A stretch of DNA of 64,000 nt, taken from Deltaproteobacteria bacterium (GTDB lineage Bacteria; Desulfobacterota; DSM-4660; Desulfatiglandales; Desulfatiglandaceae). Location of the stretch: NCBI GenBank assembly GCA_021737785.1, contig JAIPDI010000019.1, positions 1 to 64,000 on the forward strand, written 5' to 3'. Position numbers and translations under genes: made by a program. Position 1 is the first letter of the stretch, and the number at the start of each line of letters is the position of its first letter. Below the pieces are notes generated by a model. That model had not been told where the DNA came from, ran no database searches, and saw only the letters and a program-made list of their open reading frames with translations. Positions 15,188 to 61,177 of the stretch are shown one piece after another.

Positions 15188-16481
15188 TCAAGGCACACGT
15201 CGGGCGGCTGTGATCATCGATCTTGGCAAAAGAACACCAAGCTCGCCAAATACCTTTTCTGACGGAAATCGATGGATGCCTTGCAAACGCAACTTATGCC
15301 GATCGACCAGAAAGAGTCTCACGCGGTTATAGACATTCCGCTCCACTGCACGGCTCGTGATCTGTGTCGTCCCATAACAGAAGTAAGTGAACCAGCCTCG
15401 CAAAAGCGCATTTAGCCTTGTACGCACATCTGGCCATGCCCCTTTTTCACCTGGTCTAAGAATCCCCCTTACCTTCTGCTTTAGACGTCCTATACTTTTC
15501 TTTGAAGGGCTGGCTCCCATATACGGTTTCCCCGTTTTCTTAAAATACACGGACCCAAAGGTGTAACCCAGAAAGTCAAATTGCTCTTTTTGAGCATCTC
15601 TTACCACCGTTTTGTCCTCGTTGAGTCTGAGGCCCAGCTTTTCCATGACGCCTTGCGTCCATTGCAGGGATTGCCTGGCCCGTCCTCGACTCAATATAAC
15701 GAAGTCATCCGCATAGGATATGGCACCTACTTATTCGCCAGTGCTTTAGAAAGCGATTCATGTAGAGATTCGCCATCAGAGGGCTGATAACGCCTCCCTG
15801 CGGGGTGCCGAGCTTGTTCTTTCGTCCACCTGACATTTTACCTCGGCCATTTCTATCCTGCTCTTGTACCGGAGCTTTCAGCCAAAGTTTGATCAGATGC
15901 AGGATGTTACAATCTACAATCCTGCGGGCTACGCACTGCATAAGGTCGTTATGTGGAATCGTATCGAAGTATTTTGACAGATCCGCATCAACAACGTCGG
16001 TGTAGCCTTGGCACAATAGCTCGTGAACCTCTTGGATCGCATCTAATGCGCTGCGCTTGGGCCGATACCCATAAACGTTGGGCTCCAAGTCCGCTTCAAA
16101 AATTGGTTCGATCACCAGTTTGGCCGCTGTCTGAATCACCCGATCCCGTATGGTAGGAATCCCTAAAGGGCGATATCCTCCACCGGGCTTTGGGATCATA
16201 ACGCGCCGCACCGGCTGCGGTTTGTATGCCTTTGCCTTTAACTCCTCTCCGATCCCGGATAACCACCCCTCCACACCCTTTGATTCGACCATTTCGAAGG
16301 TGATGCCATCAACACCAGCTCCTCCCCCATTGGCTTTAGCCAAGCGGTAAGCGTGCCAGAGGATGTCCTCCCGATAGATCTTGTCATAGAGCAGGTAAAA
16401 CCGAAAATCCGGCTCCTCCTTCGCCTTGAGATAAAGCTTTCTCTGGAAAGTTCGAATCTTTTCAGGTGTTTTCAGGCTCAT
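15188..16481 (-). pseudogene. Group II intron reverse transcriptase/maturase, frameshifted before YADD
   Basis: The gene should encode one protein of about 430 residues. The first part (from MSLKTPEKIRTF at 16481) contains RT motifs, including GVDGITFE, RPLGIPTIRDR and TPQGGVISPLMANLY, and then runs into a stop near 15705. The second part (YADDFVILSRGRAR onward, to 15188) lies in another frame and carries the catalytic YADD box plus the maturase X domain (RGWFTYFCYG). The break falls between KHWR and AISYADD, around 15730-15740, and some residues usually found there are also missing. No HNH endonuclease domain is present. As written, no active RT can be made; a base-calling error is possible but would not restore the missing residues. 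Confidence 0.8.
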
Positions 16482-16975
16482 CACCAATCACCCTTTCTCA
16501 TCTCCTTCAAAAGCACACCAGAAGTAAGGGACCTTCCCTCCATCCCGTTTCCGGGGCTTCACCGGTACTATGTCCCTCTCCGACTCCCGCTCAGGCCGAA
16601 ACCTAAAGCTTCGTTACGGGTCGCTACCCCGCGCCCGGGACGGGCCTCCCACGTTGCCCAAATTACCTTCCTGACATCCTGCCCTCATTACCCCGGTGGA
16701 TCGGAACAGGTGCATTTGACGGTTACTTCCCTATCCCACAGCGGCCTTCCCCGAATATTGGGCGGGTCGGCTTCCACGACTGTACTTTCGAGGCCTGCTC
16801 AAGGTTCACTCGCGTTACGGCCTGTCAGGTTGCTGCAACCTAAAAGTTTACATTTGTCCCCAGGGCTTCAGCAACGAGGTCTCCCTCCATCACTGCCTGG
16901 GTAGCTACCGGGATGTACCGACAATTTCCCGGACGGGACTTTCACCCGCTGGTAATTTGCACCTTCGTGGCGCAC

Positions 16976-46236: not shown

Positions 46237-46974
46237 ATGTTGCAGATCCACAGCATCGTCGACAATGTAAGAAAATATCTGCTTGGCCAAATTCTTCATG
46301 GAGAATTGCATCCCGGGCAGCAGGTGAAGGAACAGGAGATCGCATCCGCTTTAGGGATCAGCCGGCCCCCCATCAGGGAGGCGCTGAAATTCCTGGAGGC
46401 AGAGGGATTGATCCTGAGGAAACCGAATAGGGGGGCCTTTGTGGCCACCATCACCGAACATGATGCATGGGAGATTTATACCCTCAAGTGCAGTCTGTAT
46501 GAAATGGCCACCCGACTGGCATTTGAAAAAATTTCCAAATTAAACCTGGAGAAATGGGAAAAGGTGGTGGAGGGGATGGAAAAATGTGTCTTGTCCGAAT
46601 CCCCCGACGTCATCAGGTACCAGTCCCTTAATAAGGAATTCCACGACATTATGTTTCAGATCTCCGGCCATCAGCGCCTTCAAAAGATCTCTCAAATGCT
46701 TCACCACCAAATGAATCGATTCAGTTGCGTATCCCTGATGGATGAAGCCCATCTTAAGGGATCCCTTTCGTACCACCAGGAAATTCTGGATGCCATTAAG
46801 GAAGGGGATATGGAACGCACCATCCGGATCACCCGGGAACATATCCTGAAAGGTCTGGAAATCGTTCAAGAGATCATCGCCGGAGAATCGGCTTCAAAGA
46901 ACCCTGCAGGGGAGACGGGCCCACTAAAGGGAACCGTCGATCATCCCCCCGAATACGCGGGCGGTATTATTTAG
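46237..46974 (+). CDS. GntR-family regulator, FCD subfamily
   Basis: A 245-residue regulator. The winged helix-turn-helix (about 10-75) has GQQVKEQEIASALGISRPPI and LKFLEAEGLI. The FCD domain (about 90-220) has histidines that in this family bind metal and carboxylate ligands (EFHD, HRKLHHQ-like region, H at 199). It is the first gene before the TRAP transporter and nicotinate genes, so it is the likely local regulator, with a carboxylate such as nicotinate or a pathway intermediate as effector (inference). Confidence 0.85.
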   Translation: MLQIHSIVDNVRKYLLGQILHGELHPGQQVKEQEIASALGISRPPIREALKFLEAEGLILRKPNRGAFVATITEHDAWEIYTLKCSLYEMATRLAFEKISKLNLEKWEKVVEGMEKCVLSESPDVIRYQSLNKEFHDIMFQISGHQRLQKISQMLHHQMNRFSCVSLMDEAHLKGSLSYHQEILDAIKEGDMERTIRITREHILKGLEIVQEIIAGESASKNPAGETGPLKGTVDHPPEYAGGII

Positions 46975-47233: not shown

Positions 47234-48286
47234 ATGAAAAAAGGTTTTCTGGGCTGTCTAGTGGTTGCGCTGTTCGGTTTTTTTATCCTGCCCGCGGGGG
47301 CTCTGGCCGAATCAAAATCCAAGATGCATTTAAAATTCAGCACCTGGCATCCACCTGCAAGCAGGGAAGTCAAAACCGTGTGGCAGCCGATGCTCGAGAC
47401 GCTAAAGAAGAAAAGCGACGGACGTATCACGTATACACTCTATGCCGGAGCCGCCCTCGGGGCAGGGCCGGAACACTATGATATCGTAGCCAACGGGCTG
47501 TCCGATATGGGGTACTTCACTGCGACCTGGACCCCGGGACGTTTTCCCCTGACCGATGTCCTGTCTCTGGCCACCTGGGTGGACGGTAAAGACATCGCTG
47601 TGGATATCGGAAACAAGATGTACAAGGAAGCCCTGGCAAAAGAGTTCCCCGGGGTCAAGATGATCGAGCTCAACGGATGTATTCAGGCCTTTCTGTGGAC
47701 GAGAAAACCGGTAAAATCCATGGACGACTGCAAGGGGCTGAAAATCCGGTCGCCGGGTGGACACCAAACCCATTACATCAAATCTCTGGGAGCGGAACCG
47801 GTGTTCATGCCCCTCGGCGACGTCTATCTTGCGCTGGAGACCGGGACGATTGACGGCCTGGTGACCTGCCCGCCCCTGGTACTGGCGTTCAAGCTGTATG
47901 AAGTGGCCAAGTACGGCGTGGTCGCGACCTTCGGATGTGTTTCCGAGGGCGTCATCATGAATCAGAAAAGCTGGGAAAGAACCCCGGACGATCTGAAACC
48001 CATCATTAAAGAGGTTTGCGGCAATCCCTTCAGGACCACCGGCGGTCTTAACCAGGACGTCTACAAGGTCATGATGAAGGAGATCCAGGACAAGGGCGTG
48101 CAGCTCACCACCCTGACCCCGGAGCAGGAGAAAGAATGGTTTGCTGGGTTCCAGGATGTGACCAAGAAATGGGTTGCCGATCTGGAAGCAAAAGGGTTGC
48201 CGGCGAAGGATACCGTCTTGAAATATAACAAAATTTCTCAAGATCTGGGCGTCACCTGCGTCGCCTTCCCTGAGGAGTGGAAGTGA
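47234..48286 (+). CDS. dctP: TRAP transporter substrate-binding protein (DctP family)
   Basis: A 350-residue periplasmic binding protein. A signal peptide (MKKGFLGCLVVALFGFF, cleavage after ALA) is followed by LKFSTWHPP and the DctP domain. The KIRSPGG segment carries the arginine that in DctP proteins binds the ligand carboxylate. AAGGAGG precedes the ATG. It is first in the TRAP set and precedes nicotinate-type catabolic genes, so nicotinate is a plausible ligand (inference). Confidence 0.9.
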   Translation: MKKGFLGCLVVALFGFFILPAGALAESKSKMHLKFSTWHPPASREVKTVWQPMLETLKKKSDGRITYTLYAGAALGAGPEHYDIVANGLSDMGYFTATWTPGRFPLTDVLSLATWVDGKDIAVDIGNKMYKEALAKEFPGVKMIELNGCIQAFLWTRKPVKSMDDCKGLKIRSPGGHQTHYIKSLGAEPVFMPLGDVYLALETGTIDGLVTCPPLVLAFKLYEVAKYGVVATFGCVSEGVIMNQKSWERTPDDLKPIIKEVCGNPFRTTGGLNQDVYKVMMKEIQDKGVQLTTLTPEQEKEWFAGFQDVTKKWVADLEAKGLPAKDTVLKYNKISQDLGVTCVAFPEEWK

Positions 48287-48369: not shown

Positions 48370-48457
48370 CGCTAAAAGGCCCGCGAAAGACGCGTCTATG
48401 GTCTCTTGAGGCAGGGTTAACAAAATAGGGCACCGAGCGTCACGGAGTATGTTGACG

Positions 48458-48931
48458 ATGATTAGAAAAATAATCCAACGCTGTACACTCTACATGAGTT
48501 ATGTCGGCATGGTGTTGCTCCTCCCGATGATGCTCCTTACAAGCAGTGAGGTGATAGGCCGGGCAGTGTGGTCCCAGCCTATTCCGGGATCCATGGAGCT
48601 CTCAAGTTATATGCTGGCCGCCTTCATTCTCCTGGGCCTCGCCTACACCCAGCAAGTCAAGGGGCATGTTCGTGTCACCATGTTCGTATCCAGGCTTCCG
48701 AAAGCATGGGCGCTCATACTCGATGTGATCACCGCCCTTCTGAGTCTGTTCATCATCGCCGTGATGGCCTGGCAGGGCTGGGTCGTGGGAATTAAAGAAC
48801 AGACCGTATCGGATATGCTCAGGATCCCCCAGTTTCCTTTTCGATTACTCGTTTCAGTAGGGGGGGTATTTCTCTTTCTTGAGCTTTTTCTTGAACTGAC
48901 GGACACCCTGAAGAGACTTGTGAGGCGATAA
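48458..48931 (+). CDS. dctQ: TRAP transporter small permease (DctQ family)
   Basis: A membrane protein of 157 residues (160 if an earlier ATG at 48449 is used) with four hydrophobic helices. The ATG at 48458 has GGAG at ten bases and is preferred; the earlier one is only one base from it. The pattern (GRAVWSQPIPGSMELSSYML, AWQGW) is typical of DctQ. It overlaps dctM by one base. Confidence 0.87.
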   Translation: MIRKIIQRCTLYMSYVGMVLLLPMMLLTSSEVIGRAVWSQPIPGSMELSSYMLAAFILLGLAYTQQVKGHVRVTMFVSRLPKAWALILDVITALLSLFIIAVMAWQGWVVGIKEQTVSDMLRIPQFPFRLLVSVGGVFLFLELFLELTDTLKRLVRR

Positions 48932-50241
48932 TGGTGGATCCAGTTGTTGTCGGCGTCATTGGAACGTGTCTGGTCTTTTTCCTTCTTTTTATCGGCATGC
49001 CCATTGCCTTTGCCATGATGTTAGTGGGGTTTTCGGGAGTCACCTATCTATCCAGTGTAAATGCCGCGCTTCCGATGCTTGGCAGGACGATCTACGAGGT
49101 CTCTTCCTATTACCCCTATACCGTGATCCCGCTCTTTATCGTCATGGGAGGATTTGCCGGAAGTTCGGGGATGACCGGGGAACTCTACAGTGCATTTGAT
49201 AAATGGCTTCGAAGACTGCCCGGAGGATTGGCCATCGCCACCATCGGGGCATGTGCCGGGTTCTCGGCGGTATCAGGCTCTTCAGTGGCAACCGCTGCAG
49301 CCATGGGTACGGTTGCCCTGCCCGAAATGAAACGGTTTAATTATCATCCCCGGCTCGCCACCGGGAGCGTAGCTGCCGGCGGGACCCTGGGATTCCTTAT
49401 TCCTCCCAGCATCGGGTTCATCGTTTACGGCATGCTGACGGAGCAATCCATCGGCAAGCTGCTGGTGGCCGGCATTCTTCCGGGAGCATTCCTGGCCCTG
49501 GCCTATACCCTCATCGTGATAGGTTCTGTGAAGCTCAATCCCAGCCTGGCCCCCGTGAGTTTGGAACCGGTTTCATGGCGCACGAAGTTCGCGTCGCTCA
49601 TGGCAGTATGGGAACCCCTGGCTGTTTTTTTCCTGGTGATGGGTGGTATTTACGGCGGTTTTTTTACGCCCACCGAGGCCGGCGCCATCGGGGCGACCAT
49701 CCTTTTCCTGATCGCATTGATCAAGAGGAAGCTGAATCGAGCAAACCTCGTGGAAGCGCTTCAGGAGTCGGTTCGGATCTCCGTGATGGTGCTCTTTCTG
49801 GTGGCCGGCGCCAATGTGTTCAGTTACTTTCTCGCCCTTTCCACCATCCCCATGAGAGTGGCCGAGTGGGTCGCCGCCCTTGAGATTTCCCCCTATCTGA
49901 TCCACGCCATCATGATGGTGATCTATCTCTTTCTGGGATGTTTCCTGGATGCCATTTCCATGATGGTGCTCACGCTGCCGGTGATTTACCCGGTAATACT
50001 GGCCCTGGGGTTTGATCCGATCTGGTTCGGCGTCATTGCGGTACTCATGATGGAGGCCGGCCTGATCACCCCCCCCATGGGGCTGAACGTCTTTACGGTG
50101 GCCGGGGTGGCAAAGGATACCCCGGTGGAGACCATATTCAGGGGGGTCATCCCCTTTCTCTTTGCCATATTTGCCCTGGTGATATTGATCACCGTATTTC
50201 CCAAGATCGCACTCCTGTTGCCGGGCATGATGACGCGGTAG
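48931..50241 (+). CDS. dctM: TRAP transporter large permease (DctM family)
   Basis: A 436-residue sodium-coupled permease with about twelve hydrophobic segments. The family features LFIVMGGFAG, GFSAVSGSSVATAAAMG, GGTLGFLIPPSI and GLITPPMGLNVF are all present. GAGG stands five bases before the ATG within the end of dctQ. It completes the transporter. Confidence 0.92.
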   Translation: MVDPVVVGVIGTCLVFFLLFIGMPIAFAMMLVGFSGVTYLSSVNAALPMLGRTIYEVSSYYPYTVIPLFIVMGGFAGSSGMTGELYSAFDKWLRRLPGGLAIATIGACAGFSAVSGSSVATAAAMGTVALPEMKRFNYHPRLATGSVAAGGTLGFLIPPSIGFIVYGMLTEQSIGKLLVAGILPGAFLALAYTLIVIGSVKLNPSLAPVSLEPVSWRTKFASLMAVWEPLAVFFLVMGGIYGGFFTPTEAGAIGATILFLIALIKRKLNRANLVEALQESVRISVMVLFLVAGANVFSYFLALSTIPMRVAEWVAALEISPYLIHAIMMVIYLFLGCFLDAISMMVLTLPVIYPVILALGFDPIWFGVIAVLMMEAGLITPPMGLNVFTVAGVAKDTPVETIFRGVIPFLFAIFALVILITVFPKIALLLPGMMTR

Positions 50242-50418
50242 GGGAGAGGCCATCGGGGTCTGTTTGGGGCGCTCTCATCGGGTGAAGCAGCGGCGGACCA
50301 GGGCTTCGGCAATTATACGAACACCTTGGTCAGGCACCAAAAAGGAAGGCCGGCCGAAAAGGCACTGGCCCCTTCATGCAGTGCAAAAGACTTGAAATAT
50401 ATTAAGGAGGTTTATTTG
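50242..50418. other. dctM-aldehyde dehydrogenase intergenic region
   Basis: A short gap. It ends with AAGGAGG at 50404 ahead of the ATG at 50419. No promoter that I would defend. Confidence 0.4.
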
Positions 50419-51903
50419 ATGGCAGTATTACCGGAAGTAAAAAAACATTATGGAAAACTCAAATTCCTTATCAACGGTGAGTGGATCGATTCCAAATCAA
50501 CGGATATTCACGAGACCACCAATCCTGCGACAGGTGACGTAATCGCTGAATTTCCCGCCGCCACCAAAGAAGAGGCCCTCCAAGCGGTCAGGGCAGCCCA
50601 CGAGGCCTTCCAGACGTGGAAGCATGTCTCCCTGAGGGACAGGGGACGCCTCCTCTTCGGCATGCATGCCAAGTTTGAAGATAACTACGAAGACATGTGT
50701 CGCATCCTGACCCAGGATCATGGAAGAACCATCGGCGAAGCAAGGGGTTCGGTGAGTCGCGTGATAGAGAACATTGAATCGGCATGCTCGGCCCTATACG
50801 GGTTACCCAAGCGAAACGAACATATCGACCAGCTCGCCAACGGGATCGACCAGTATCTGGTCTGGGAGCCGCTCGGTGCATTCCTGATCATTACGCCGGG
50901 CAATATTCCGATGCACGCGTGGTCGTCCTTTGTGCCCTATGCCATGGCTGCCGGATGTACCGTGGTGGTCAGTCCGAGCAGGCAGGACCCCGTGGCCGCT
51001 GAGACCATATCCAGAGTGGCCCAGGAGGCCGGTTTTCCTCCAGGCGTCATCAATGTGGTCCATGGCGGACGGGAGATCAACAAGCTGATTCTCGAGCAGC
51101 CGGAGATTAAGGGGGTCGGTTTCATCGGATCCAACAGGGCCGGCCATGAACTCTTCCAGACCTGCGGCAGACTCCTGAAGACCTCGTCCATCAACGGGAA
51201 CGGGAAAAATGCCGTAATCATCATGCCCGATGCCGATATTGACGAATCCATTCGCTGGATGCTGAGGGCCTGTTTCGGAATGACCGGTCAGAGATGTCTC
51301 GGGGTGGACAACGTGGTCATCATCGGCGATATCTACGATGAAGTGAAAGAGAAATTCGTTGCAGCGGCCAAGGCCATGAGACTCGGTTATGGTCTTGACG
51401 AAGATGCGGAGCTGGGCCCCTATACCACCCGGGGCGGCAAGGACAAGATTCTTGATTGGATCGACCACTCCCTGCAGGAAGGCGCCAAGCTGGCCCTCGA
51501 CGGAAGGGGAGTTAAGGCGGAGGGCTATCCCAACGGTTACTTCATGGCGCCGACCATTCTCGAAGATGTGAACGTGGATATGCCGATGGCCAAGGAAGAG
51601 GCCTTTGGGGCGGTTGCGGCCCTGATCAGGGGAGACAGCCTGGATCAGGCCATTGAGTGGATCAACACCAAGACCAATCTCGGTCACTCGGCCGCCATCA
51701 TGACCAGCAGCATGAAAAACGCCCGAAAGCTCATTCGAGAGGCCAATGTGGGCAACGTTGCGGTAAATCTGGGGGTGGCCCAGCCCTATGCCTTCTTTCC
51801 CCTGGGTTCCCGGCGAGAATCCTTTGTTGGGTCCGCCAAATCCCGTATGGCGTCCATGCGATTGTTCATGGACGAGAAGACGGTGGTTTCCCGCTGGATA
51901 TGA
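50419..51903 (+). CDS. Methylmalonate-semialdehyde-type (CoA-acylating) aldehyde dehydrogenase, ALDH6 family
   Basis: A 494-residue NAD enzyme most like methylmalonate semialdehyde dehydrogenase (MmsA/IolA). The catalytic Cys293 is in GQRC with Arg292. The position of the general-base Glu of hydrolytic ALDHs is Asn259 (SINGNGKN), as in ALDH6 enzymes, which pass the acyl group to CoA. The EARGSVSRVIEN segment aligns with the carboxylate-binding arginine region of IolA. The GVGFIGSNRAG, AEGYPNGYFMAPTI and FPLGSRRESFVG segments also match. In MMSDH the substrate loses its carboxylate as CO2. In this operon context the substrate may be 2-formylglutarate, which would give glutaryl-CoA (inference). 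The C-terminal carboxylate end lacks further domains. Confidence 0.85.
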   Translation: MAVLPEVKKHYGKLKFLINGEWIDSKSTDIHETTNPATGDVIAEFPAATKEEALQAVRAAHEAFQTWKHVSLRDRGRLLFGMHAKFEDNYEDMCRILTQDHGRTIGEARGSVSRVIENIESACSALYGLPKRNEHIDQLANGIDQYLVWEPLGAFLIITPGNIPMHAWSSFVPYAMAAGCTVVVSPSRQDPVAAETISRVAQEAGFPPGVINVVHGGREINKLILEQPEIKGVGFIGSNRAGHELFQTCGRLLKTSSINGNGKNAVIIMPDADIDESIRWMLRACFGMTGQRCLGVDNVVIIGDIYDEVKEKFVAAAKAMRLGYGLDEDAELGPYTTRGGKDKILDWIDHSLQEGAKLALDGRGVKAEGYPNGYFMAPTILEDVNVDMPMAKEEAFGAVAALIRGDSLDQAIEWINTKTNLGHSAAIMTSSMKNARKLIREANVGNVAVNLGVAQPYAFFPLGSRRESFVGSAKSRMASMRLFMDEKTVVSRWI

Positions 51904-52340: not shown

Positions 52341-53075
52341 ATGAATAAACTCATTCTGGTTTTTATGATGATCGTTTTTTGGGGAAGCCTGGTGTCGGTG
52401 CCTTTCACCATACCTTGCGCAGAGTGCGGTTCAGAGGGCAACATCGGTGTGATCGTCGTGGATCTGCAGGGGGATTTTACCACCCTGAAGAATGGATCCC
52501 TGGCGGTCGACGGAACCGATCAGGCCTATGTGGACGCCGTGACCAAGGCCACCAAGGACTTCAGCCGGGAAGGCTTTTTGATCTTCGGCACCCAGGACTG
52601 GCATCCCGCGGATCATGTTTCCTTCGTCACCAATCACGAGGGAAAAAAGCCCTTTGAGGCGATTCAGATCGAGGGAAGGACCCAGGTCCTCTGGCCGCCC
52701 CACTGCATTCAGGGGACGGAAAATGCCCGGGTCCTGGTGGATAACAACCTGTTCCTGGCGATTGTAAAGAAAGGGCAGGATTCCCGATATGACAGTTATT
52801 CCGGCTTTCAGGACGACGGCGGCGCCAGGACCGAGATGGACAAAATCCTCAAAAGAAACATGGTTAGAAAGGTCGTGGTGTACGGGCTCGCCACCGACTA
52901 TTGTGTCAAGGCGACGGCCGTCGACGCCGCCCGGGCAGGGTTCAAGGTGATCGTTGTGGAGGACCTTTGCAGGGGGGTGGCCCCGGACACCACTAAAAAG
53001 GCCCTGGAAGAGATGAAGGCCCAGGGGATAGAGGTCCTGAAGACCGTGGACATGAAGAAAATCAAGGAATTTTAA
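52341..53075 (+). CDS. Exported nicotinamidase-like isochorismatase-fold hydrolase
   Basis: A 244-residue protein with an N-terminal signal peptide (MNKLILVFMMIVFWGSL, cleavage near PCA). The isochorismatase/nicotinamidase fold has the PncA catalytic triad: Asp41 (VVDLQGDF), Lys144 (VKKGQD) and Cys178 (TDYCVKATA). Metal ligands Asp86, His88 and His92 lie in QDWHPADH. It would hydrolyse nicotinamide to nicotinate and ammonia. Cytoplasmic PncA is the rule, so export suggests a catabolic role in the periplasm, before uptake by the TRAP transporter. GGGGGG stands seven bases before the ATG. Confidence 0.8.
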   Translation: MNKLILVFMMIVFWGSLVSVPFTIPCAECGSEGNIGVIVVDLQGDFTTLKNGSLAVDGTDQAYVDAVTKATKDFSREGFLIFGTQDWHPADHVSFVTNHEGKKPFEAIQIEGRTQVLWPPHCIQGTENARVLVDNNLFLAIVKKGQDSRYDSYSGFQDDGGARTEMDKILKRNMVRKVVVYGLATDYCVKATAVDAARAGFKVIVVEDLCRGVAPDTTKKALEEMKAQGIEVLKTVDMKKIKEF

Positions 53076-53175: not shown

Positions 53176-53670
53176 ATGAAACCATACGCGCATATACCGA
53201 TTGAATGTACAATCAACGGGAATAAGGTATCCCTGGAGGTGGAGGCGGGCGAAACCGCCCTGGAGGTGATTCGCGACCGTCTCTCACTCAAGGGGACCAA
53301 GGAGGGCTGCGGCATCGGAGAATGCGGGGCCTGCACCATCGTGGTGGATGGGAAGAGTGTAAATGCCTGTCTCATGCTCGCCGCACAACTCCACGGACGG
53401 GAGATTTTGACCGTTGAAGGCCTAGGGAAGGATGGGGATATGATTCCGCTTCAGCAGTCTTTTGTGGACCATCATGCGGTCCAGTGCGGCTTCTGTACCC
53501 CCGGGTTCCTGATGAGCAGTTATGCCTTGCTCAAGGAGAATCCCCATCCCGATCGTCCTGAAATTATTGACGCCGTTTCAGGGAATCTTTGCCGGTGCAC
53601 AGGATATCAGCAAATTGTGGACGCGGTTGAGGATGCGGCAAAACACCCCCGCAGGGAAACTACCAAATGA
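53176..53670 (+). CDS. Molybdenum hydroxylase [2Fe-2S] subunit (nicotinate dehydrogenase-type, small)
   Basis: A 164-residue CoxS/XdhC-type subunit with two [2Fe-2S] clusters. The plant-type motif is CGIGECGACT plus NACLM, and the second is QCGFCTPG plus NLCRCTGYQ. It passes electrons from molybdenum to the FAD subunit. It is the first gene of an S-M-L set and overlaps the next gene by ATGA. In the E. barkeri enzyme this is NdhS. Confidence 0.88.
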   Translation: MKPYAHIPIECTINGNKVSLEVEAGETALEVIRDRLSLKGTKEGCGIGECGACTIVVDGKSVNACLMLAAQLHGREILTVEGLGKDGDMIPLQQSFVDHHAVQCGFCTPGFLMSSYALLKENPHPDRPEIIDAVSGNLCRCTGYQQIVDAVEDAAKHPRRETTK

Positions 53671-54530
53671 AAAGGGATGTGGCGTATGTGAGACCGGGCA
53701 CCCTGGAGGAGGCCCTTTATTTTTTGAAAGAGGAGGGGGAAAATTCCCAAATCCTCGCTGGCGGGACGGATGTCATCACAGGACTCCGATCCGGAACGGT
53801 CCGAAGCGGACTTCTTGTGGATATCTCAAGGATTCCTGAACTCAAAGGCATTGAGGAAAAAGAAGACACAATATGTATCGGTGCGGGCGTCACCCTTTCT
53901 GAGATTATGACCTCCAATGCCGTAGCCCCTGTTGCCCCTCTCCTTCAAAAAGCGGCCAGAGTCTTCGGAAGCACGCAGATCCGAAACATGGCCACCATTG
54001 GCGGCAACATCTGCAGGGCCTCACCGGCCGGGGACACCCTCCCGGTGCTGTACGCCCATGAGGCGCAATTGGAATTGATCTCGTCCTCCTCGTTGCGGAG
54101 GATGTTGCTCAGCGACTTCATCCGGGGTCCCGGAGAAACCCTATTGGGGGCCGGAGAACTTTTGCGGGGAATCCGGCTTAAAAAGGTCCCCGAGTTCTGT
54201 GTACATCAATTCGAGAAGGTGGGAAACCGAAAGGTCCTGGCAGTCTCAATCGTGAGCCTGGCAGCCCTCCTTAGCCTGGACCATACGGGGATTATCGAAG
54301 GTGCGCGTCTGGCATGGGGGAGTGTGGCCCCCACCGTGGTCAGATCTACACAGGTGGAACAATTTCTGACAGGTAAACCGCTTACTGCCAAGACCCTCAA
54401 TGAGACCTTTCCCCTGGTACAGGAGGCGATCTCTCCCATCGATGATATTCGTGCGAGCGCCGTCTATAGAAGGAGGGTCGCGGCCGGCCTTCTTTTTCGC
54501 CTGTTAAAGGATCGGGAGCCGCGGGATTGA
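53667..54530 (+). CDS. Molybdenum hydroxylase FAD subunit (nicotinate dehydrogenase-type, medium)
   Basis: A 287-residue CoxM-type subunit. The FAD-binding motifs are ILAGGTDVI (about 31-39) and TIGGNICRASPAGDT (about 110-124), followed by the CO_deh_flav_C domain. It corresponds to NdhF of E. barkeri. It overlaps both neighbours, showing tight coupling in a heterotrimer. Confidence 0.87.
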   Translation: MKRDVAYVRPGTLEEALYFLKEEGENSQILAGGTDVITGLRSGTVRSGLLVDISRIPELKGIEEKEDTICIGAGVTLSEIMTSNAVAPVAPLLQKAARVFGSTQIRNMATIGGNICRASPAGDTLPVLYAHEAQLELISSSSLRRMLLSDFIRGPGETLLGAGELLRGIRLKKVPEFCVHQFEKVGNRKVLAVSIVSLAALLSLDHTGIIEGARLAWGSVAPTVVRSTQVEQFLTGKPLTAKTLNETFPLVQEAISPIDDIRASAVYRRRVAAGLLFRLLKDREPRD

Positions 54531-54544
54531 AGACCGGGTGTCAT

Positions 54545-56824
54545 ATGAAAGAAGAAATGAAAAACATCGGAAAAAATATCGCCCGTCGCGGTGCGATTGA
54601 GAGATTGAAGGGAACGCCCATCTTTTGCGCAGACCTGAAACTCGAAAATCCCCTTACCCTGAAGGTCCTGAGGAGCACCCGTGCCCATGCGCGAATCATA
54701 CATTTGGGTGTGGAAAAGGCTGCCAGGTTAGAGGGTGTTGTCAGGATCTTCACGGCAGCGGACATACCGGGAAAAAACCTCACCGGCATCATCAATAAGG
54801 ACCATCCCCTTCTGGTCCCGGACAAGGTGCGCCATGTGGGGGACGCCATCGCGCTGGTGGCGGCCGAAAGCGAGGAAGCGGCCGAAAACGCCCTACATGC
54901 CATTGCGGTGACCTATGAGGACCTTCCTGTTGTTTACGACCCGGAAGAGGCCTTAAAGCAAGACGCCCCCAGGATACATGAAAACGGGAATCTTCTCTTT
55001 ACGAGGAAGATAAAGAGGGGAGATATTGACCAGGCCTTTGATCGATGTGAAGTTGTCGTGGAGAAGGTTTACAGGACCTCCCTTCTGGAACATACGTATC
55101 TGGAACCCGATGCCGGGGCCGGGTATGTGGAAAAAGACGGGACCCTGGCCATCTTCTCGTCCACCCAGAATCCGCATTACGACCACAGTGAGGTGGTCTC
55201 TCTCCTGGGGCTGGAGGACGGAAAGGTTCGGATCATCCAGGCGGCCACGGGTGGCGGGTTTGGCTCCAAACTGGACCTGAATACCCAGGGTTACATCGGG
55301 CTCGCCCTCTATTATCTGCAGCGACCTGTTCGGCATGTATACAGCCGCGAAGAGGTCTTTTTGGCCACGGCCAAGAGGCACCCCCTCATCATCCGCATGA
55401 AGACCGGCGCGGACAGAGAGGGGAGGCTCCTGGCCATGAAGACGCGCATTATCTGCGACACAGGTGCTTACGGCTCTTACGGCATCGCCGTCGCCTCCCG
55501 GGCCGCGGTCCATGCCCAAGGCCCCTATGACATCGAAACCGTCGATGTGGAGGCGCACTGCGTCTATACCAACAATCCCCTTGCAGGGGCCATGCGGGGG
55601 TTCGGTGCGCCTCAAATGGCCTTTGCCTTTGAATCCCAGATGGATCTCCTGGCAGAAAAGCTTCAGATGAGTCCCTTTGATATCAGGCGCCTCAATGCCC
55701 TGAAAAATGGATCCAGGACCGGAACGGGACAGGAATTGACGGCGAGTGTGGGGATCGGAGAGTGTCTGGATGCGGTTCACCCCTATTATGCCGAGGCACT
55801 GGAAGCGTGGCGGACAGCCCCGACCCCGCCTTTCCAGAAGCGGGGGGTCGGTCTCGGGGCCATGTGGTACGGGATCGGGAATACCGGGGTTCAGAACCCC
55901 TCCACGGCCCAGATCGAGGTGGACCTGGAGGGAAGGGTCACCCTCTATACCGGGTGCGCGGATATCGGCCAGGGTTCCACTACGGTCCTTTCTCAGATCG
56001 CCGGGGAGACGCTGGGATTGTCCGCGGACGTCATCAGAACCGTTGTAGGGGATACGGGCTTGACGTCCAATGCGGGGGCCACGTCCGCAAGCCGGCAGAC
56101 CTATATTTCTGGAAACGCGGTCAAGGACGCGGCAGACCAGCTGGCGGACATGCTCTTGACTGAGGGCGTGGATCTGCTCAAGGTTCCCAAGGAGTCGCTG
56201 GTCCTGGATTCCGGGCAGATCCGGGATGTAGATGATCCGAAAAAGAGCATCCCCCTGGTGAAGGCGGTCAAACGTGCCCACAGGAAAGGCCTTCCCTTGA
56301 AATGGCAGGGATACTTCGATCCGGTCACCGAACCGCTGGACCCTGAAACAGGTCAGGGCGTGCCCTATGCCACCTATGCCTTTGCATGCCATCTTGTTGA
56401 GGTGACCGTGGACGTCTATACGGGCGAAGTGGCGGTCAACCGGGTGGTTGCGGCACACGACGTGGGCAAGGCCATCTACCCCGAAGGCGTGATCGGCCAG
56501 ATCTGCGGAGGGGTGGCCATGGGAATCGGCTTTGCCCTCATGGAGGAATGTGTCCCCGGAAAAACGTCGTCTATTAACGATTACAGTATCCCCACGTGCA
56601 GCGATATGCCCGAGGTCATCCCGATCATCGTGGAGTCCCCGGAACCCACAGGGCCGTATGGCGCAAAGGGTGTCGGAGAGCCCGCCCTGATTCCCACTGC
56701 CCCGGCCGTCCTGAACGCCATTGCCGATGCCCTGGGAGAACGGATTTACACCCTTCCCGGGAATCTGGAACGGGTCCTGAATGCAGCTGTTACGGCAGGA
56801 CAATTAGACAATAAGGAGGTTTAA
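54545..56824 (+). CDS. Molybdopterin large subunit of nicotinate dehydrogenase-type hydroxylase
   Basis: A 759-residue xanthine-dehydrogenase-family catalytic subunit. It has GGGFGSKLD (about 236), RGFGAPQ near 370, GQGSTTVLSQIA and the catalytic glutamate in GVGEP (about 712). E. barkeri splits this subunit into NdhL and NdhM; here it is one chain, as in most family members. It would hydroxylate nicotinate at C6 to 6-hydroxynicotinate. The family label alone does not fix the substrate; the next two genes do. An in-frame TTG at 54527, overlapping the previous stop, is an alternative start. No selenocysteine codon is seen; NdhL/M selenium is a non-selenocysteine cofactor. Confidence 0.85.
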   Translation: MKEEMKNIGKNIARRGAIERLKGTPIFCADLKLENPLTLKVLRSTRAHARIIHLGVEKAARLEGVVRIFTAADIPGKNLTGIINKDHPLLVPDKVRHVGDAIALVAAESEEAAENALHAIAVTYEDLPVVYDPEEALKQDAPRIHENGNLLFTRKIKRGDIDQAFDRCEVVVEKVYRTSLLEHTYLEPDAGAGYVEKDGTLAIFSSTQNPHYDHSEVVSLLGLEDGKVRIIQAATGGGFGSKLDLNTQGYIGLALYYLQRPVRHVYSREEVFLATAKRHPLIIRMKTGADREGRLLAMKTRIICDTGAYGSYGIAVASRAAVHAQGPYDIETVDVEAHCVYTNNPLAGAMRGFGAPQMAFAFESQMDLLAEKLQMSPFDIRRLNALKNGSRTGTGQELTASVGIGECLDAVHPYYAEALEAWRTAPTPPFQKRGVGLGAMWYGIGNTGVQNPSTAQIEVDLEGRVTLYTGCADIGQGSTTVLSQIAGETLGLSADVIRTVVGDTGLTSNAGATSASRQTYISGNAVKDAADQLADMLLTEGVDLLKVPKESLVLDSGQIRDVDDPKKSIPLVKAVKRAHRKGLPLKWQGYFDPVTEPLDPETGQGVPYATYAFACHLVEVTVDVYTGEVAVNRVVAAHDVGKAIYPEGVIGQICGGVAMGIGFALMEECVPGKTSSINDYSIPTCSDMPEVIPIIVESPEPTGPYGAKGVGEPALIPTAPAVLNAIADALGERIYTLPGNLERVLNAAVTAGQLDNKEV

Positions 56825-56826
56825 TA

Positions 56827-58017
56827 ATGTCAGGCGTTACTCTGAAAAACATCGGAACCATTGTGAGCGGCGATATCTCAAGGCCCTTTCTCGAAGGCAA
56901 TGCCATCGCCATCGAGGACGGCAAAATCAAGGATATCGGCATGGTTGATGATCTTGGCACTAAGAAGGGCGACATGGTCATCGATTGTGCAGGGGCCACT
57001 GTAACCCCGGGTCTCATCGACTCCCATTGCCATGTGATCCTTGGGGACTTCACCTCTCGCCAGAATCAGATGGGCTTTATCGAAAGCGAGCTGCATGGCG
57101 GGGTCACCACGCTGATTTCCGCCGGAGAGGTCCACCTGCAGGGGAGACCCAAGGATCCGGCGGGAACCAAGGTCCTGGCGATCCTGGCGGCCAAGGCCTG
57201 GGCAAATTTCAGACCCGGAGGGGCCAAGGTCCTTGGCGGGGCCGTGATCCTGGAGAAAGGTCTTGTCAAACAGGATTTCGAGGAAATGGCCCGGGAAGGG
57301 GTGCGTGTGGTGGGTGAAATCGGACTCGGAAGCGTCAAACAGCCCGAGGATGCCGCACCCATGGTCGAGTGGGCCAGAGAGGCGGGGATGACCGTGATGA
57401 TGCATACCGGGGGAACGTCCATTCCGGGGAGCAGTACGGTCACCGCGGAACAGGTGATCAAAACCAATCCCCATATCGCCTCCCATGTCAACGGCGGTCC
57501 CACGGCCGTTGCCATCGAGGAGGTGGAGAGACTGGTCAATGAAACAAAACTCGCGATTGAGATCGTTCACTGCGGCAATCCCAAGGTGGCCGTCGAAGCC
57601 GCAAATATTTGCATAAAGGCCGGGGCCCTGGACCGCATGATCATCGGAAACGACGCCCCATCAGGGACGGGGGTGATCCCCCTGGGTATTCTGCGGGTGA
57701 TCAACCACCTGGCGAGTCTGACCCCGATCAAGGCCGAAGAGGCCATTTGCATGGCGACCGGGAACACGGCACGTATCTACAAGCTGAACCGAGGCATCCT
57801 TGAGCAAGGGAAGGAGGCGGACCTCCTCATCATGGACGCCCCGATGGGGTCGGTGGGAGAAAACGCCCTGGCCGCTATTGAAGCGGGCGATGTCCCGGGG
57901 GTCGCCATGATCCTGGTGGATGGGAAAATCGTTGTTTCTACCAGCAGGAATACGCCGCCCCCCAAGCGGAAACCCACCGTGACCAGGAACTTCGGCGGGC
58001 CCGCGATTGAAGAATGA
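56827..58017 (+). CDS. ena: Enamidase (6-oxo-1,4,5,6-tetrahydronicotinate amidohydrolase)
   Basis: A 396-residue cyclic amidohydrolase that is very like the Eubacterium barkeri enamidase as I recall it. Shared stretches include IVSGDI, TVTPGLIDSHCHV, SELHGGVTTLISAG, GAVILEKGL, EDAAPMVEWA, MHTGGTSIPGSSTVTAEQ, GNDAPSGTGVIPLGILR, ICMATGN and a SRNTPPPKR tail. His67 and His69 are metal ligands. It hydrolyses tetrahydro-6-oxonicotinate to 2-formylglutarate and ammonia. Two bases separate it from the large hydroxylase subunit, with AAGGAGG upstream. This gene is the strongest evidence for a nicotinate pathway. Confidence 0.88.
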   Translation: MSGVTLKNIGTIVSGDISRPFLEGNAIAIEDGKIKDIGMVDDLGTKKGDMVIDCAGATVTPGLIDSHCHVILGDFTSRQNQMGFIESELHGGVTTLISAGEVHLQGRPKDPAGTKVLAILAAKAWANFRPGGAKVLGGAVILEKGLVKQDFEEMAREGVRVVGEIGLGSVKQPEDAAPMVEWAREAGMTVMMHTGGTSIPGSSTVTAEQVIKTNPHIASHVNGGPTAVAIEEVERLVNETKLAIEIVHCGNPKVAVEAANICIKAGALDRMIIGNDAPSGTGVIPLGILRVINHLASLTPIKAEEAICMATGNTARIYKLNRGILEQGKEADLLIMDAPMGSVGENALAAIEAGDVPGVAMILVDGKIVVSTSRNTPPPKRKPTVTRNFGGPAIEE

Positions 58018-58157: not shown

Positions 58158-59675
58158 ATGAAAGTGGACCTGGAAAAATGTATCGGCTGCGGGTATTGCG
58201 TACGGGATTGTCCTGTGGGCGCGGTTCACCTGTCCAAAAAAAAGGCCGTCATCGACGAGACCTGCACCCAGTGCGGGGCCTGTCTCAAGGTATGCGAGCA
58301 GGGGGCACTGTCCAGGGAGTCCAGGATCCCCGAACATGCGGTCATTTGCGATGCCTGCCCCATCAACTGCCAGATCAGACCCGGGATGATCGGCGCATGC
58401 CATCGGTACAGAAATGTCGAGGGAGAACTCCTTCGGGTCACCCCCCTTCATACCTGGCAGGATGTGGAAGACGTCGTGGGTCCGGACCCGGCCGAGCCCA
58501 TCAGGAGGCCCTTGATCACCGCCATTGGATCGGGGACGACCTATCCGGACTGCAAGCCCGCACCATATATTGTCAGGGGCAAACAGAAAGGCGTTGACGT
58601 GGTAACGGTGGTGACCGAGGCCCCTCTGAGTTACAGCGGCATTCTGGTCAAGGTCGATACGGATATTCCGGTGGGCGAAGAAGGGGCGGATGTCCTCCTT
58701 GGGAAAAGAAAGGTGGGGATGGTGACCACCGAGCAGTACGGCTCCAAGATGCTCTCCATCGGCGGGGTCAACCTCCTCACTGAAAAGGACGGGCTGGCGG
58801 TGGCCAGGACCATCACGGATATTGCCAATAAAAAACCGGTGAAAATGAGGGTGAAGGGGGGGGCAAGGCTGGAACTGCAGGTCGGTCAGACCCCGGTCAT
58901 CAACGGCATGCGTCCCGACAATATGAGGGTCGGCTGCGGGAGCGCCACCCTGGGTCTTTTCGCCCCGCTTCTCGTGGCAGCCGCCGATGAGGTCATTATC
59001 CTCGACCCTCATATCACCAGCCTGATGAGCGAACACGCGGCCGGCAGGTTTGTTGGGGCCAGACCTTCCGGGATCAGACTCCGTTTCAGAATGAGCACAC
59101 CCGGACGATATTTCGGGGACCATGGGAGCGGTTGGGGCGGCACATCCATCATGAACCCCCTGGAGGTAATCTCGGGTCTGGATCAGGACGTGGCCAGGAC
59201 AGGGATGCGTGTCTTGATCACGGAGACCACGGGCCGTAATGGAAGGCTCTTTGAACTGGATGAGGGGGGGACGTTCCAGGAGGTGCCCCTCACCGGGGCC
59301 AGTAGGGAGGCACTCGATGCCATTTCGTCCACATGTGAACCCTCCAGGGTTTCCGCCGTATATATGGGAGGTACGGGAGGAAGCGCAAGGGCCGGGGTTA
59401 CCCGCTATCCGGTCAAGTTGACCCGTGCCGTTCATTCCGCCAAGGCCAGTCTCACGGTGGGCGGGGCCCCCACCTATGTCCTGCCCGGCGGCGGGATCAA
59501 CTTCATGGTGGACGTGGAGAGGGTTAAGGGAGGCTTTTTCTATTGGACGCCTACCCCTGCAACGATCTGCCCTGTGGAATACACGATGGATTTAAGAGAT
59601 TACCAGGAGATGGGCGGCCATCTCGAAGCGATGAAGCCCTTTGCCGTCAAGGGTCCTCGGATGGTTGTAGATTGA
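58158..59675 (+). CDS. hnr: 6-Hydroxynicotinate reductase (Hnr-like)
   Basis: A 505-residue iron-sulfur flavoprotein of the Hnr family. Two ferredoxin clusters are formed by Cys8/11/14/18 and Cys36/39/42/46, and a third site by Cys64/67/71/81 (CDACPINC). This agrees with the two [4Fe-4S] and one [2Fe-2S] clusters reported for the E. barkeri enzyme, which also has a covalent flavin. A TGAS tetrapeptide (379-382) resembles the S/T-G-A-S/T target of ApbE flavin transferases. It reduces 6-hydroxynicotinate to tetrahydro-6-oxonicotinate with ferredoxin, the substrate of enamidase. The next gene, an ApbE-like protein, overlaps by four bases. No good Shine-Dalgarno sequence precedes it. Confidence 0.85.
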   Translation: MKVDLEKCIGCGYCVRDCPVGAVHLSKKKAVIDETCTQCGACLKVCEQGALSRESRIPEHAVICDACPINCQIRPGMIGACHRYRNVEGELLRVTPLHTWQDVEDVVGPDPAEPIRRPLITAIGSGTTYPDCKPAPYIVRGKQKGVDVVTVVTEAPLSYSGILVKVDTDIPVGEEGADVLLGKRKVGMVTTEQYGSKMLSIGGVNLLTEKDGLAVARTITDIANKKPVKMRVKGGARLELQVGQTPVINGMRPDNMRVGCGSATLGLFAPLLVAAADEVIILDPHITSLMSEHAAGRFVGARPSGIRLRFRMSTPGRYFGDHGSGWGGTSIMNPLEVISGLDQDVARTGMRVLITETTGRNGRLFELDEGGTFQEVPLTGASREALDAISSTCEPSRVSAVYMGGTGGSARAGVTRYPVKLTRAVHSAKASLTVGGAPTYVLPGGGINFMVDVERVKGGFFYWTPTPATICPVEYTMDLRDYQEMGGHLEAMKPFAVKGPRMVVD

Positions 59676-60574
59676 CCGAATATACCGAGGCCCGGCAAAT
59701 CCTCCGAGTCCTGCAGGGCGGTGATGTCATGGCCGAATGGGGTCCCATGAGGCTGGTCATCTCATCTTTTGTAGGAAAGGTTCCCCAACCAGAGATGAGC
59801 GTGGATGCGGCCCGATACGCCTTCTCAGCCCTGGACAAGATCGGCCGGCGGCGGGAAATCCTGAGTCGCGCCTGTGCAGAGCTCCCGCATCGGCTCGAGG
59901 AACCCCTGGCCGTGGAAATGGTCTGCAGCGTCCTGGCAGTGGGGGATGCGGACCTGACCCCCATGGCCGCTGTGGCAGGGACCATTGCCGATGCAGTGGC
60001 CGATTACCTGGCCGATCGGGGGATGACAAAGGCGATCGTCAATAACGGAGGGGATATCGCCGTTCGGCTTCGGGGGGAGGGATCGGTAACCGTGGGGATC
60101 CGTCAGGATGTAAGGCGCCATGAATTTTCCCATGTGCTCCGGCTCGAATCCGAGCGCACCTCCTGGGGGGTGGCCACCAGCGGCCTGGGCGGTCGGAGCC
60201 TGACCAGAGGCATCGCCTCGGCCGCCACCGTGATCGCCCATAAGGCTTCCGTCGCCGATGCAGCGGCCACGGCTGTGGGCAATGCGAGTTTTGTGGAGGA
60301 TGTGCAGGTGATCCAGGAGGATGCAGAGAAGATCGATCCCGCTACCGATATACCCGGCATCGCCGTCACCTGTAAGATCGGGCCTTTGAATGAAGAGACG
60401 AAATCCCTTTCATTGCAACGGGCGCTGGAAAGGTCGGCGGAATTGGTGGAAAGAAAGATCATCCTGGGTTCATGTGTCGTGGTTGACGGCAAGATCGGGA
60501 TGACTGATTATTTCAGAAAATGCCTGATCCATGGATCCCCGGATAAGAGGACATCGTTTGCTGCAAAATCTTAA
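59672..60574 (+). CDS. UPF0280 family, ApbE-like, predicted flavin transferase for Hnr
   Basis: A 300-residue protein if started at TTG 59672, which overlaps the hnr stop (TTGA). ApbE-fold marks are VNNGGDIA (about 123-130), GVATSGLGG (166-174) and ASVADAAATAVGNA (about 192-205), which resembles the AxxADAxATA segment of ApbE. ApbE proteins attach FMN to Thr/Ser of partners. Because Hnr is known to hold a covalent flavin, this gene's position suggests that it matures Hnr. That is inference; UPF0280 has no assigned activity that I know. A later ATG (59729) is possible. Confidence 0.7.
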   Translation: MTEYTEARQILRVLQGGDVMAEWGPMRLVISSFVGKVPQPEMSVDAARYAFSALDKIGRRREILSRACAELPHRLEEPLAVEMVCSVLAVGDADLTPMAAVAGTIADAVADYLADRGMTKAIVNNGGDIAVRLRGEGSVTVGIRQDVRRHEFSHVLRLESERTSWGVATSGLGGRSLTRGIASAATVIAHKASVADAAATAVGNASFVEDVQVIQEDAEKIDPATDIPGIAVTCKIGPLNEETKSLSLQRALERSAELVERKIILGSCVVVDGKIGMTDYFRKCLIHGSPDKRTSFAAKS

Positions 60575-60598: not shown

Positions 60599-61177
60599 AT
60601 GGAAGTCAGAAAATACGTGACCATTGTCGAAGAAATCCTATCCGAAGGGGGTCGCCCCATGACGCCTCCCGGCAAGAGGGCGGCTGCCGTTGCGGTTATC
60701 AAGAACCCCTTTGCCGGCACATATGAAGAAGACCTGACCCCTTTGATGGATATCGGGGAGGCCCTCGGAGGGATTCTCGGCAAGATGGCCGTGGAGGCCC
60801 TGGGGATCAAACCGGAAGCGGCTGAAGGGTACGGCAAGGGTGCCATTGTGGGCGAGAACGGCGAGAGGGAACACGCAGGGGCCATCCTTCATCCCAAACT
60901 GGGGAAACCCTTTCGTGACGCAGTGGGCGGGGGCAAGGCCCTCATTCCGTCAGCCAAAAAGATCGGCGGCATGGGCACGGAAATCGATGTGCCCACCCAC
61001 TACAAGGACGCGGCCTTTGTTCGGAGCCACTTCGATGCCATGGCAATCCGAATCGACGATGCCCCTAAAGCGGATGAGATCGTCGTCGCCCTTGTGGTGA
61101 CCGATTGCGGCAGGCCCCATCCCAGAATCGGGGGCTTGAAGATGGAAGAGGCAAAGAAGGAAGACGGACTCAAGTAG
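60599..61177 (+). CDS. AA_synth-family protein (PF06684) of unknown role
   Basis: A 192-residue cytoplasmic protein of the amino acid synthesis family (DUF1185-like). Typical stretches are KNPFAGTYEEDLTPLMDIGE, YGKGAIVGENGEREHAGAI and HPKLGKPFRDA. The real reaction of this family is not known to me. It closes the nicotinate gene set, with AGGAGGG eight bases before the ATG, 24 bases after the UPF0280 gene. It may handle a formylglutarate-level intermediate or assist a neighbour. Confidence 0.7.
   Translation: MEVRKYVTIVEEILSEGGRPMTPPGKRAAAVAVIKNPFAGTYEEDLTPLMDIGEALGGILGKMAVEALGIKPEAAEGYGKGAIVGENGEREHAGAILHPKLGKPFRDAVGGGKALIPSAKKIGGMGTEIDVPTHYKDAAFVRSHFDAMAIRIDDAPKADEIVVALVVTDCGRPHPRIGGLKMEEAKKEDGLK

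Follow-up and report, generated by a model that had tools for sequence, protein, structure and literature searches.

A likely B12-free step from 2-formylglutarate to glutaryl-CoA in anaerobic nicotinate breakdown, inferred from comparative genomics

An aldehyde dehydrogenase (ALDH) encoded in a bacterial nicotinate gene cluster is likely to convert 2-formylglutarate, CoA and NAD+ into glutaryl-CoA, CO2 and NADH, replacing the B12-dependent route; the substrate, reaction, product and residue roles are inferred, without enzymology. What is shown by sequence is the gene, its residues, its cluster, its linkage to the ring-opening enamidase, the absence of the mutase of the B12 route and the presence of lower-pathway genes. 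A first-pass annotation of the same 64,000-nucleotide stretch of DNA (hereafter the window) had proposed that an ALDH6 enzyme diverts 2-formylglutarate to glutaryl-CoA and so bypasses B12, an interpretation that was chemically reasonable but based on one gene. It is now supported by comparative genomics, because the ALDH is linked to the enamidase, the mutase is absent while a control detects it elsewhere, lower-pathway genes are present, both arginines are kept and the hydrolytic glutamate is lost; none of this demonstrates the enzymatic reaction.

The teaching of how nicotinate is broken down anaerobically draws on a single organism and its long B12-dependent route. If true, our proposal would provide a second anaerobic route as the main alternative to that of Eubacterium barkeri, extend the methylmalonate-semialdehyde dehydrogenase (MMSDH) type of enzyme to a new class of substrate and supply the step that these bacteria lack between the opening of the ring and central metabolism. 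Energy would be kept as a thioester and NADH, and nicotinate would be tied to a glutaryl-CoA pathway that already serves aromatic compounds. Within the window's phylum of anaerobes, 59 of 395 sampled genomes encode the ring-opening enzyme, none of these has the mutase and most carry an ALDH6-type enzyme instead.

Results

A nicotinate gene cluster surrounds the ALDH gene

The ALDH gene lies in a same-strand run of genes that starts with a GntR/FCD regulator and the three TRAP components DctP-DctQ-DctM and continues, beyond the ALDH, with a nicotinamidase-like protein, the three subunits of a molybdenum hydroxylase, an enamidase (Ena), an Hnr-like, an ApbE-like and a PF06684 protein. The features are as follows.

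46237..46974, + strand: GntR/FCD-family regulator, likely the cluster regulator (Pfam GntR and FCD; homologs in few related clusters)
47234..48286, + strand: TRAP substrate-binding protein DctP, probable nicotinate uptake (Pfam DctP, NCBIfam TRAP_S1; 60-77% identical homologs in many sister clusters)
48449..48931, + strand: TRAP small permease DctQ (position, homologs in sister clusters)
48931..50241, + strand: TRAP large permease DctM (NCBIfam dctM, over cut-off)
50404..50410, + strand: Shine-Dalgarno-like AAGGAGG, 8 bases upstream of the ALDH ATG (from sequence)
50419..51903, + strand: ALDH6/MMSDH-like CoA-acylating aldehyde dehydrogenase of 494 aa, uninterrupted by stop codons; proposed to be a decarboxylating, glutaryl-CoA-forming 2-formylglutarate dehydrogenase
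52341..53075, + strand: nicotinamidase/pyrazinamidase-like protein, signal-like stretch at the N-terminus (matches NCBIfam PRK11609 at the cut-off; present in 8 related loci)
53176..53670, + strand: NdhS-like 2Fe-2S subunit of the molybdenum hydroxylase (nicotinate dehydrogenase) (domain models, sister-cluster homologs)
53667..54530, + strand: NdhF-like FAD subunit (domain models, sister-cluster homologs)
54527..56824, + strand: NdhL/M-like molybdopterin subunit (Pfam MoCoBD_1, MoCoBD_2)
56827..58017, + strand: enamidase Ena, predicted maker of 2-formylglutarate (493 bits to PDB 2VUN, the E. barkeri enamidase)
58158..59675, + strand: 6-hydroxynicotinate reductase-like (Hnr) Fe-S protein (N-terminal ferredoxin domains; 42-69% identical homologs beside Ena across phyla)
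59729..60574, + strand: ApbE-like protein, candidate flavin transferase for Hnr (Pfam ApbE; after Hnr in most clusters)
60599..61177, + strand: PF06684 'amino acid synthesis' protein, function unknown (conserved in most Ena clusters)

Because the amidohydrolase matches 2VUN so strongly, the pathway of the cluster is fixed as nicotinate breakdown: enamidase converts the reduced nicotinate ring to (S)-2-formylglutarate (PMC9304392). Ndh, Hnr and Ena, the upper E. barkeri-type pathway, are encoded together in the window, and the earlier placement of the ALDH inside a nicotinate cluster held, with the TRAP transporter and the nicotinamidase-like protein also alongside. Scans for promoters and terminators gave chance-level matches only.

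Two accessory proteins merit separate mention. The hydrophobic, signal-peptide-like N-terminus of the nicotinamidase-like protein (52341-53075) suggests that nicotinamide is perhaps deamidated outside the cytoplasm before TRAP uptake, and the ApbE-like protein (59729-60574) could be the enzyme that links a flavin covalently to the 6-hydroxynicotinate reductase-like protein.

The ALDH resembles MMSDH and keeps its active-site residues

The best NCBIfam model for the window ALDH is TIGR01722, which describes the CoA-acylating MMSDH (E 5.5e-111, 371.6 bits), and its closest PDB structures are all MMSDHs (8xxq, 5tjr, 1t90). Since the score lies under the curated TIGR01722 cut-off (448.5 bits), we file the protein as a divergent ALDH6 clade (clade A) and not as a textbook MMSDH; an MMSDH-like way of working is the probable reading, with the activity inferred and unproven. 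A second group of cluster-associated enzymes, clade B, scores above the cut-off (494.4 bits). The window enzyme shares with MMSDH (ALDH6, MmsA/IolA; TIGR01722; 1T90, 8XXQ) the fold family, the catalytic Cys, the Arg before it, Arg114 and the loss of the hydrolytic Glu. It differs in that clade A has only ~34% mean identity to the PDB enzymes, falls below the curated cut-off and forms a separate clade, and in its nicotinate-cluster context and the larger dicarboxylic substrate that we propose.

In the alignment, Arg292 and the catalytic Cys293 that directly follows it are both invariant in clade A. A second arginine, Arg114, lies in a G-x-V-x-R stretch and is invariant in clades A, B and C and in the PDB MMSDHs, whereas hydrolytic ALDHs have Leu at this position; the G-x-V-x-R arginine of MMSDH binds carboxylate. 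At the position of the general-base Glu, clade A has N259, clade B has Q, other groups have L, N or Q, and hydrolytic ALDHs have E; Asn259 lines up with Asn in human MMSDH and with Glu in two hydrolytic ALDHs. These MMSDH-type residues are kept in the nicotinate-linked clades, as judged from 29 sequences of type A and 13 of type B. Cys293, Arg292 and Asn259 in place of the hydrolytic Glu had all been named in the first-pass annotation and all three held, while Arg114 had gone unmentioned and was found here.

K/R465, R476 and H423 are common to A and B, unlike most other MMSDH-type sequences, and could conceivably anchor the distal carboxylate of the substrate; inferred from sequence alone, they are a lead only. 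As the columns exclusive to A and B (5) are no more numerous than those of several other group pairs (6-8), no A+B pocket signature is established.

The ALDH is linked to the enamidase across genomes

We sampled 395 genomes from the window's phylum, detected enamidase at E <= 1e-60 (59 positive genomes) and examined neighbourhoods of up to 20 kb around each enamidase. Most of the more complete enamidase loci contain an MMSDH-type ALDH of clade A (55-76% identity to the window ALDH) or clade B (33-38%). With orthologs of type A defined by at least 55% identity to the window ALDH, 37 of the 395 genomes carry one, and 36 of these 37 are also Ena-positive (background 59/395). For type A or B together the figure is 48 of 49 genomes (Fisher 7e-50); such P values count related genomes as if they were independent, which makes them overstate significance. 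In the sole Ena-less genome among the 37 (G200), the ALDH directly adjoins a PF06684 gene at a contig end.

A tree of 65 ALDH sequences gave full support to clade A and to clade B, while the characterised MMSDHs fall into a third set, C, together with an MMSDH-like paralog from the window's own genome. A, B and the rest form an unresolved three-way split, which is compatible with a single recruitment as well as with two; that the two clades were recruited independently was considered and cannot be claimed.

These data bear on the possibility that the window ALDH merely sits in the cluster and is in fact a housekeeping MMSDH for methylmalonate or malonate semialdehyde, serving valine, inositol or beta-alanine breakdown. 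The family resemblance to MMSDH speaks for it. Against it, (i) the window ALDH falls in its own clade apart from the characterised MMSDHs, (ii) clade A is nearly confined to Ena-positive genomes and (iii) a further MMSDH-like paralog is encoded elsewhere in the own genome (at C20), among different neighbours. We consider this explanation very unlikely.

The boldest reading, which we regard as probable, is that of a B12-free anaerobic nicotinate pathway that draws on two deeply separated ALDH6 clades, occurs in Thermodesulfobacteriota-type bacteria and one Bacillota lineage, and would use one enzyme to take 2-formylglutarate to glutaryl-CoA.

Two further ALDH loci were seen along the way. The clade C MMSDH paralog of the own genome (L204:11110-16889) has as neighbours a GntR regulator, an FAD-linked oxidase with an Fe-S partner and a branched-chain ABC transporter. 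Genome G047 has an extra clade A ALDH outside the enamidase cluster (L234:7777-10177); its neighbours encode an aldolase resembling dihydrodipicolinate synthase, a reductase resembling old yellow enzyme and an amidohydrolase, and the locus may serve a different pathway for a 2-formyl acid.

The mutase of the B12 route is absent

None of hgd, mgm, mii and dml is found among the window's ORFs, so that the earlier statement that the window lacks a 2-hydroxymethylglutarate dehydrogenase, methyleneglutarate mutase, methylitaconate isomerase and dimethylmalate lyase held. Full-length Mgm (2-methyleneglutarate mutase) is likewise missing from all 59 Ena-positive genomes of the phylum, the window's own included, where the query meets only ~100-aa matches to the B12-binding domain. 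As a positive control, the same query finds a full-length mutase in 6 of 6 Firmicutes with a classical cluster (64-100% identity). Mgm is also absent from the Bacillota genome of locus L101, whose cluster has a type B ALDH. A genome-wide search of the own genome gave no relative of Dml and only one distant relative of Hgd (31% identical). With Mgm, Dml and Hgd covered genome-wide, a complete hgd-mgm-mii-dmd-dml set elsewhere in the genome, which would have spoken against the first-pass reading if induced by nicotinate, was not encountered.

When bacterial and archaeal genomes were scanned with the enamidase alignment, 80 further loci emerged. In six from Firmicutes (L094-L097, L099 and L102), classical-route genes are present and an ALDH of type A or B is not: the Hgd of L095 scores 382 bits to 3CKY, and L099 and L102 encode a mutase with its B12-binding domain, Mii (PrpF), MutL and Dml (PEP_mutase). 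Among loci with both Ena and Hnr, A or B occurs without hgd or mgm in 40 (a few of them repeat entries for a genome already counted), hgd or mgm occurs without A or B in 7, and a single locus combines B with an Hgd-like gene. Another 58 have neither kind in reach; these come mostly from aerobic proteobacteria or are cut by contig ends.

We considered whether a classical B12 route persists with unrecognised, non-homologous replacements of Hgd, Mgm, Mii and Dml, the ALDH having a side role. Absence judged by homology cannot exclude non-homologous enzymes, and the own genome does have its one distant (31%) Hgd relative. However, the mutase is absent from every Ena-positive genome while the control succeeds throughout, no Dml relative is present in the own genome and the ALDH recurs at the cluster instead, which makes a hidden B12 route very improbable.

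Two loci depart from the pattern. L091 (G241), which also belongs to the window's phylum, carries an Hgd-like gene at its enamidase locus but neither an A/B ALDH nor Mgm, and the Bacillota locus L101 (12210-12944) combines a clade B ALDH with an Hgd-like gene. Both may be mixed or fermentative variants.

Genes for the further breakdown of glutaryl-CoA

The own genome encodes about 30 acyl-CoA dehydrogenases. One of them, at 15728-16888 of contig 14, is orthologous to the glutaryl-CoA dehydrogenase of Desulfococcus multivorans, scoring 638 bits to 3MPI while the second-best structure reaches 291, and the gene after it encodes glutaconyl-CoA decarboxylase A (GcdA; 755 bits to 3GF3, next kind 135). 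An approximate human GCDH query gave only ~33% matches among these dehydrogenases; an approximate Desulfococcus query led to the contig 14 gene, which was confirmed independently against the PDB. The glutaryl-CoA dehydrogenase that the first-pass annotation had asked for elsewhere in the genome was therefore found, beside GcdA. This adjacent pair (3MPI; 3GF3/1PIX) is an ordinary lower pathway and is not specific to nicotinate. GcdA is present in 42 of 59 Ena-positive and in 71 of 336 other genomes; since it is common in relatives without Ena, it is no nicotinate marker. The fate of glutaryl-CoA is not uniform, because GcdA is missing from 13 of 49 A/B genomes at the threshold used, and close (at least 63% identical) Desulfococcus-type dehydrogenase orthologs occur in only 14 of 59 Ena-positive genomes, with 41-54% relatives in others.

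Discussion

The MMSDH reaction is an oxidative decarboxylation that turns a 2-substituted malonate semialdehyde into an acyl-CoA, as when methylmalonate semialdehyde yields propionyl-CoA (PMC3710243). In 2-formylglutarate, a homologue, the substituent is a carboxyethyl group, so the same chemistry would give glutaryl-CoA, CO2 and NADH. In the proposed pathway, nicotinate, or nicotinamide via the nicotinamidase-like protein, would be hydroxylated by Ndh; Hnr would reduce the ring and Ena would open it to 2-formylglutarate, itself a 2-substituted malonate semialdehyde. Cys293 would then attack the aldehyde, with NAD+ as hydride acceptor, while Arg114 and Arg292 hold the 2-carboxylate; CO2 would leave the thioacyl-enzyme, and the glutaryl group would pass to CoA because Asn259 replaces the hydrolytic Glu. 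The distal carboxylate would require an anchor of its own. The roles of the two arginines and the order of oxidation, decarboxylation and CoA transfer are assigned by analogy with MMSDH. Glutaryl-CoA would be oxidised to glutaconyl-CoA by glutaryl-CoA dehydrogenase and decarboxylated to crotonyl-CoA by glutaconyl-CoA decarboxylase, followed by beta-oxidation.

The upper steps to 2-formylglutarate are like those of the established E. barkeri fermentation (Ndh-Hnr-Ena-Hgd-Mgm-Mii-Dmd-Dml); in contrast, the window's cluster has no Hgd, Mgm, Mii or Dml and its genome no Mgm, and an ALDH6-type enzyme is present instead. A known endpoint is shared with an aerobe: the nicotinate pathway of Azorhizobium caulinodans, likewise established, runs via glutarate (cited in PMC3511419), and this bacterium reportedly loses the nicotinate carboxyl as CO2 and enters central metabolism at glutaryl-CoA (Kitts 1992), much as proposed here. 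Azorhizobium makes free glutarate, which is activated by CoA transfer, whereas thioester formation and decarboxylation would be a single step in our pathway. None of the proteobacterial Ena loci scanned has a type A/B ALDH above 50% identity. The earlier claim of a 'new branch' of anaerobic nicotinate catabolism thus held only in part, since the glutarate/glutaryl-CoA endpoint is known from this aerobe. The novelty that we propose is a single-enzyme, CoA-forming, B12-free step in anaerobes; this direct thioester-forming step, its reaction being inferred, is probably new. The literature searched, which did not include the primary E. barkeri and Azorhizobium papers, contained no proposal of an MMSDH-type step from 2-formylglutarate.

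An Azorhizobium-like order of events is the remaining alternative: another enzyme would decarboxylate 2-formylglutarate to glutarate semialdehyde, which the ALDH would oxidise to glutaryl-CoA or glutarate. The passage of aerobic relatives through glutarate, and the presence in the cluster of a conserved protein without assigned function (PF06684), favour it. Against it, no decarboxylase candidate is specific to ALDH6 clusters, and both MMSDH-type arginines are kept while the hydrolytic Glu is lost. We therefore judge this order unlikely and prefer direct oxidative decarboxylation by the ALDH. PF06684 itself was rejected as the decarboxylase, as it occurs equally in Firmicutes Hgd/Mgm clusters, where no decarboxylation is expected at that point.

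PF06684 proteins (window 60599-61177, L102:15003-15584, L099:11218-11814, L136:11664-12533) are 57-69% identical across phyla and occur in the majority of enamidase loci, whichever of the three pathway types these represent, often as two copies in aerobic proteobacteria. Structures have been solved (2QTP, 3BYQ). The family probably represents an unrecognised common step of nicotinate breakdown, upstream of the point at which the routes split.

Elsewhere in the window (15188-16487), a group II intron-type reverse transcriptase is seemingly split over two minus-strand ORFs, perhaps a decayed copy.
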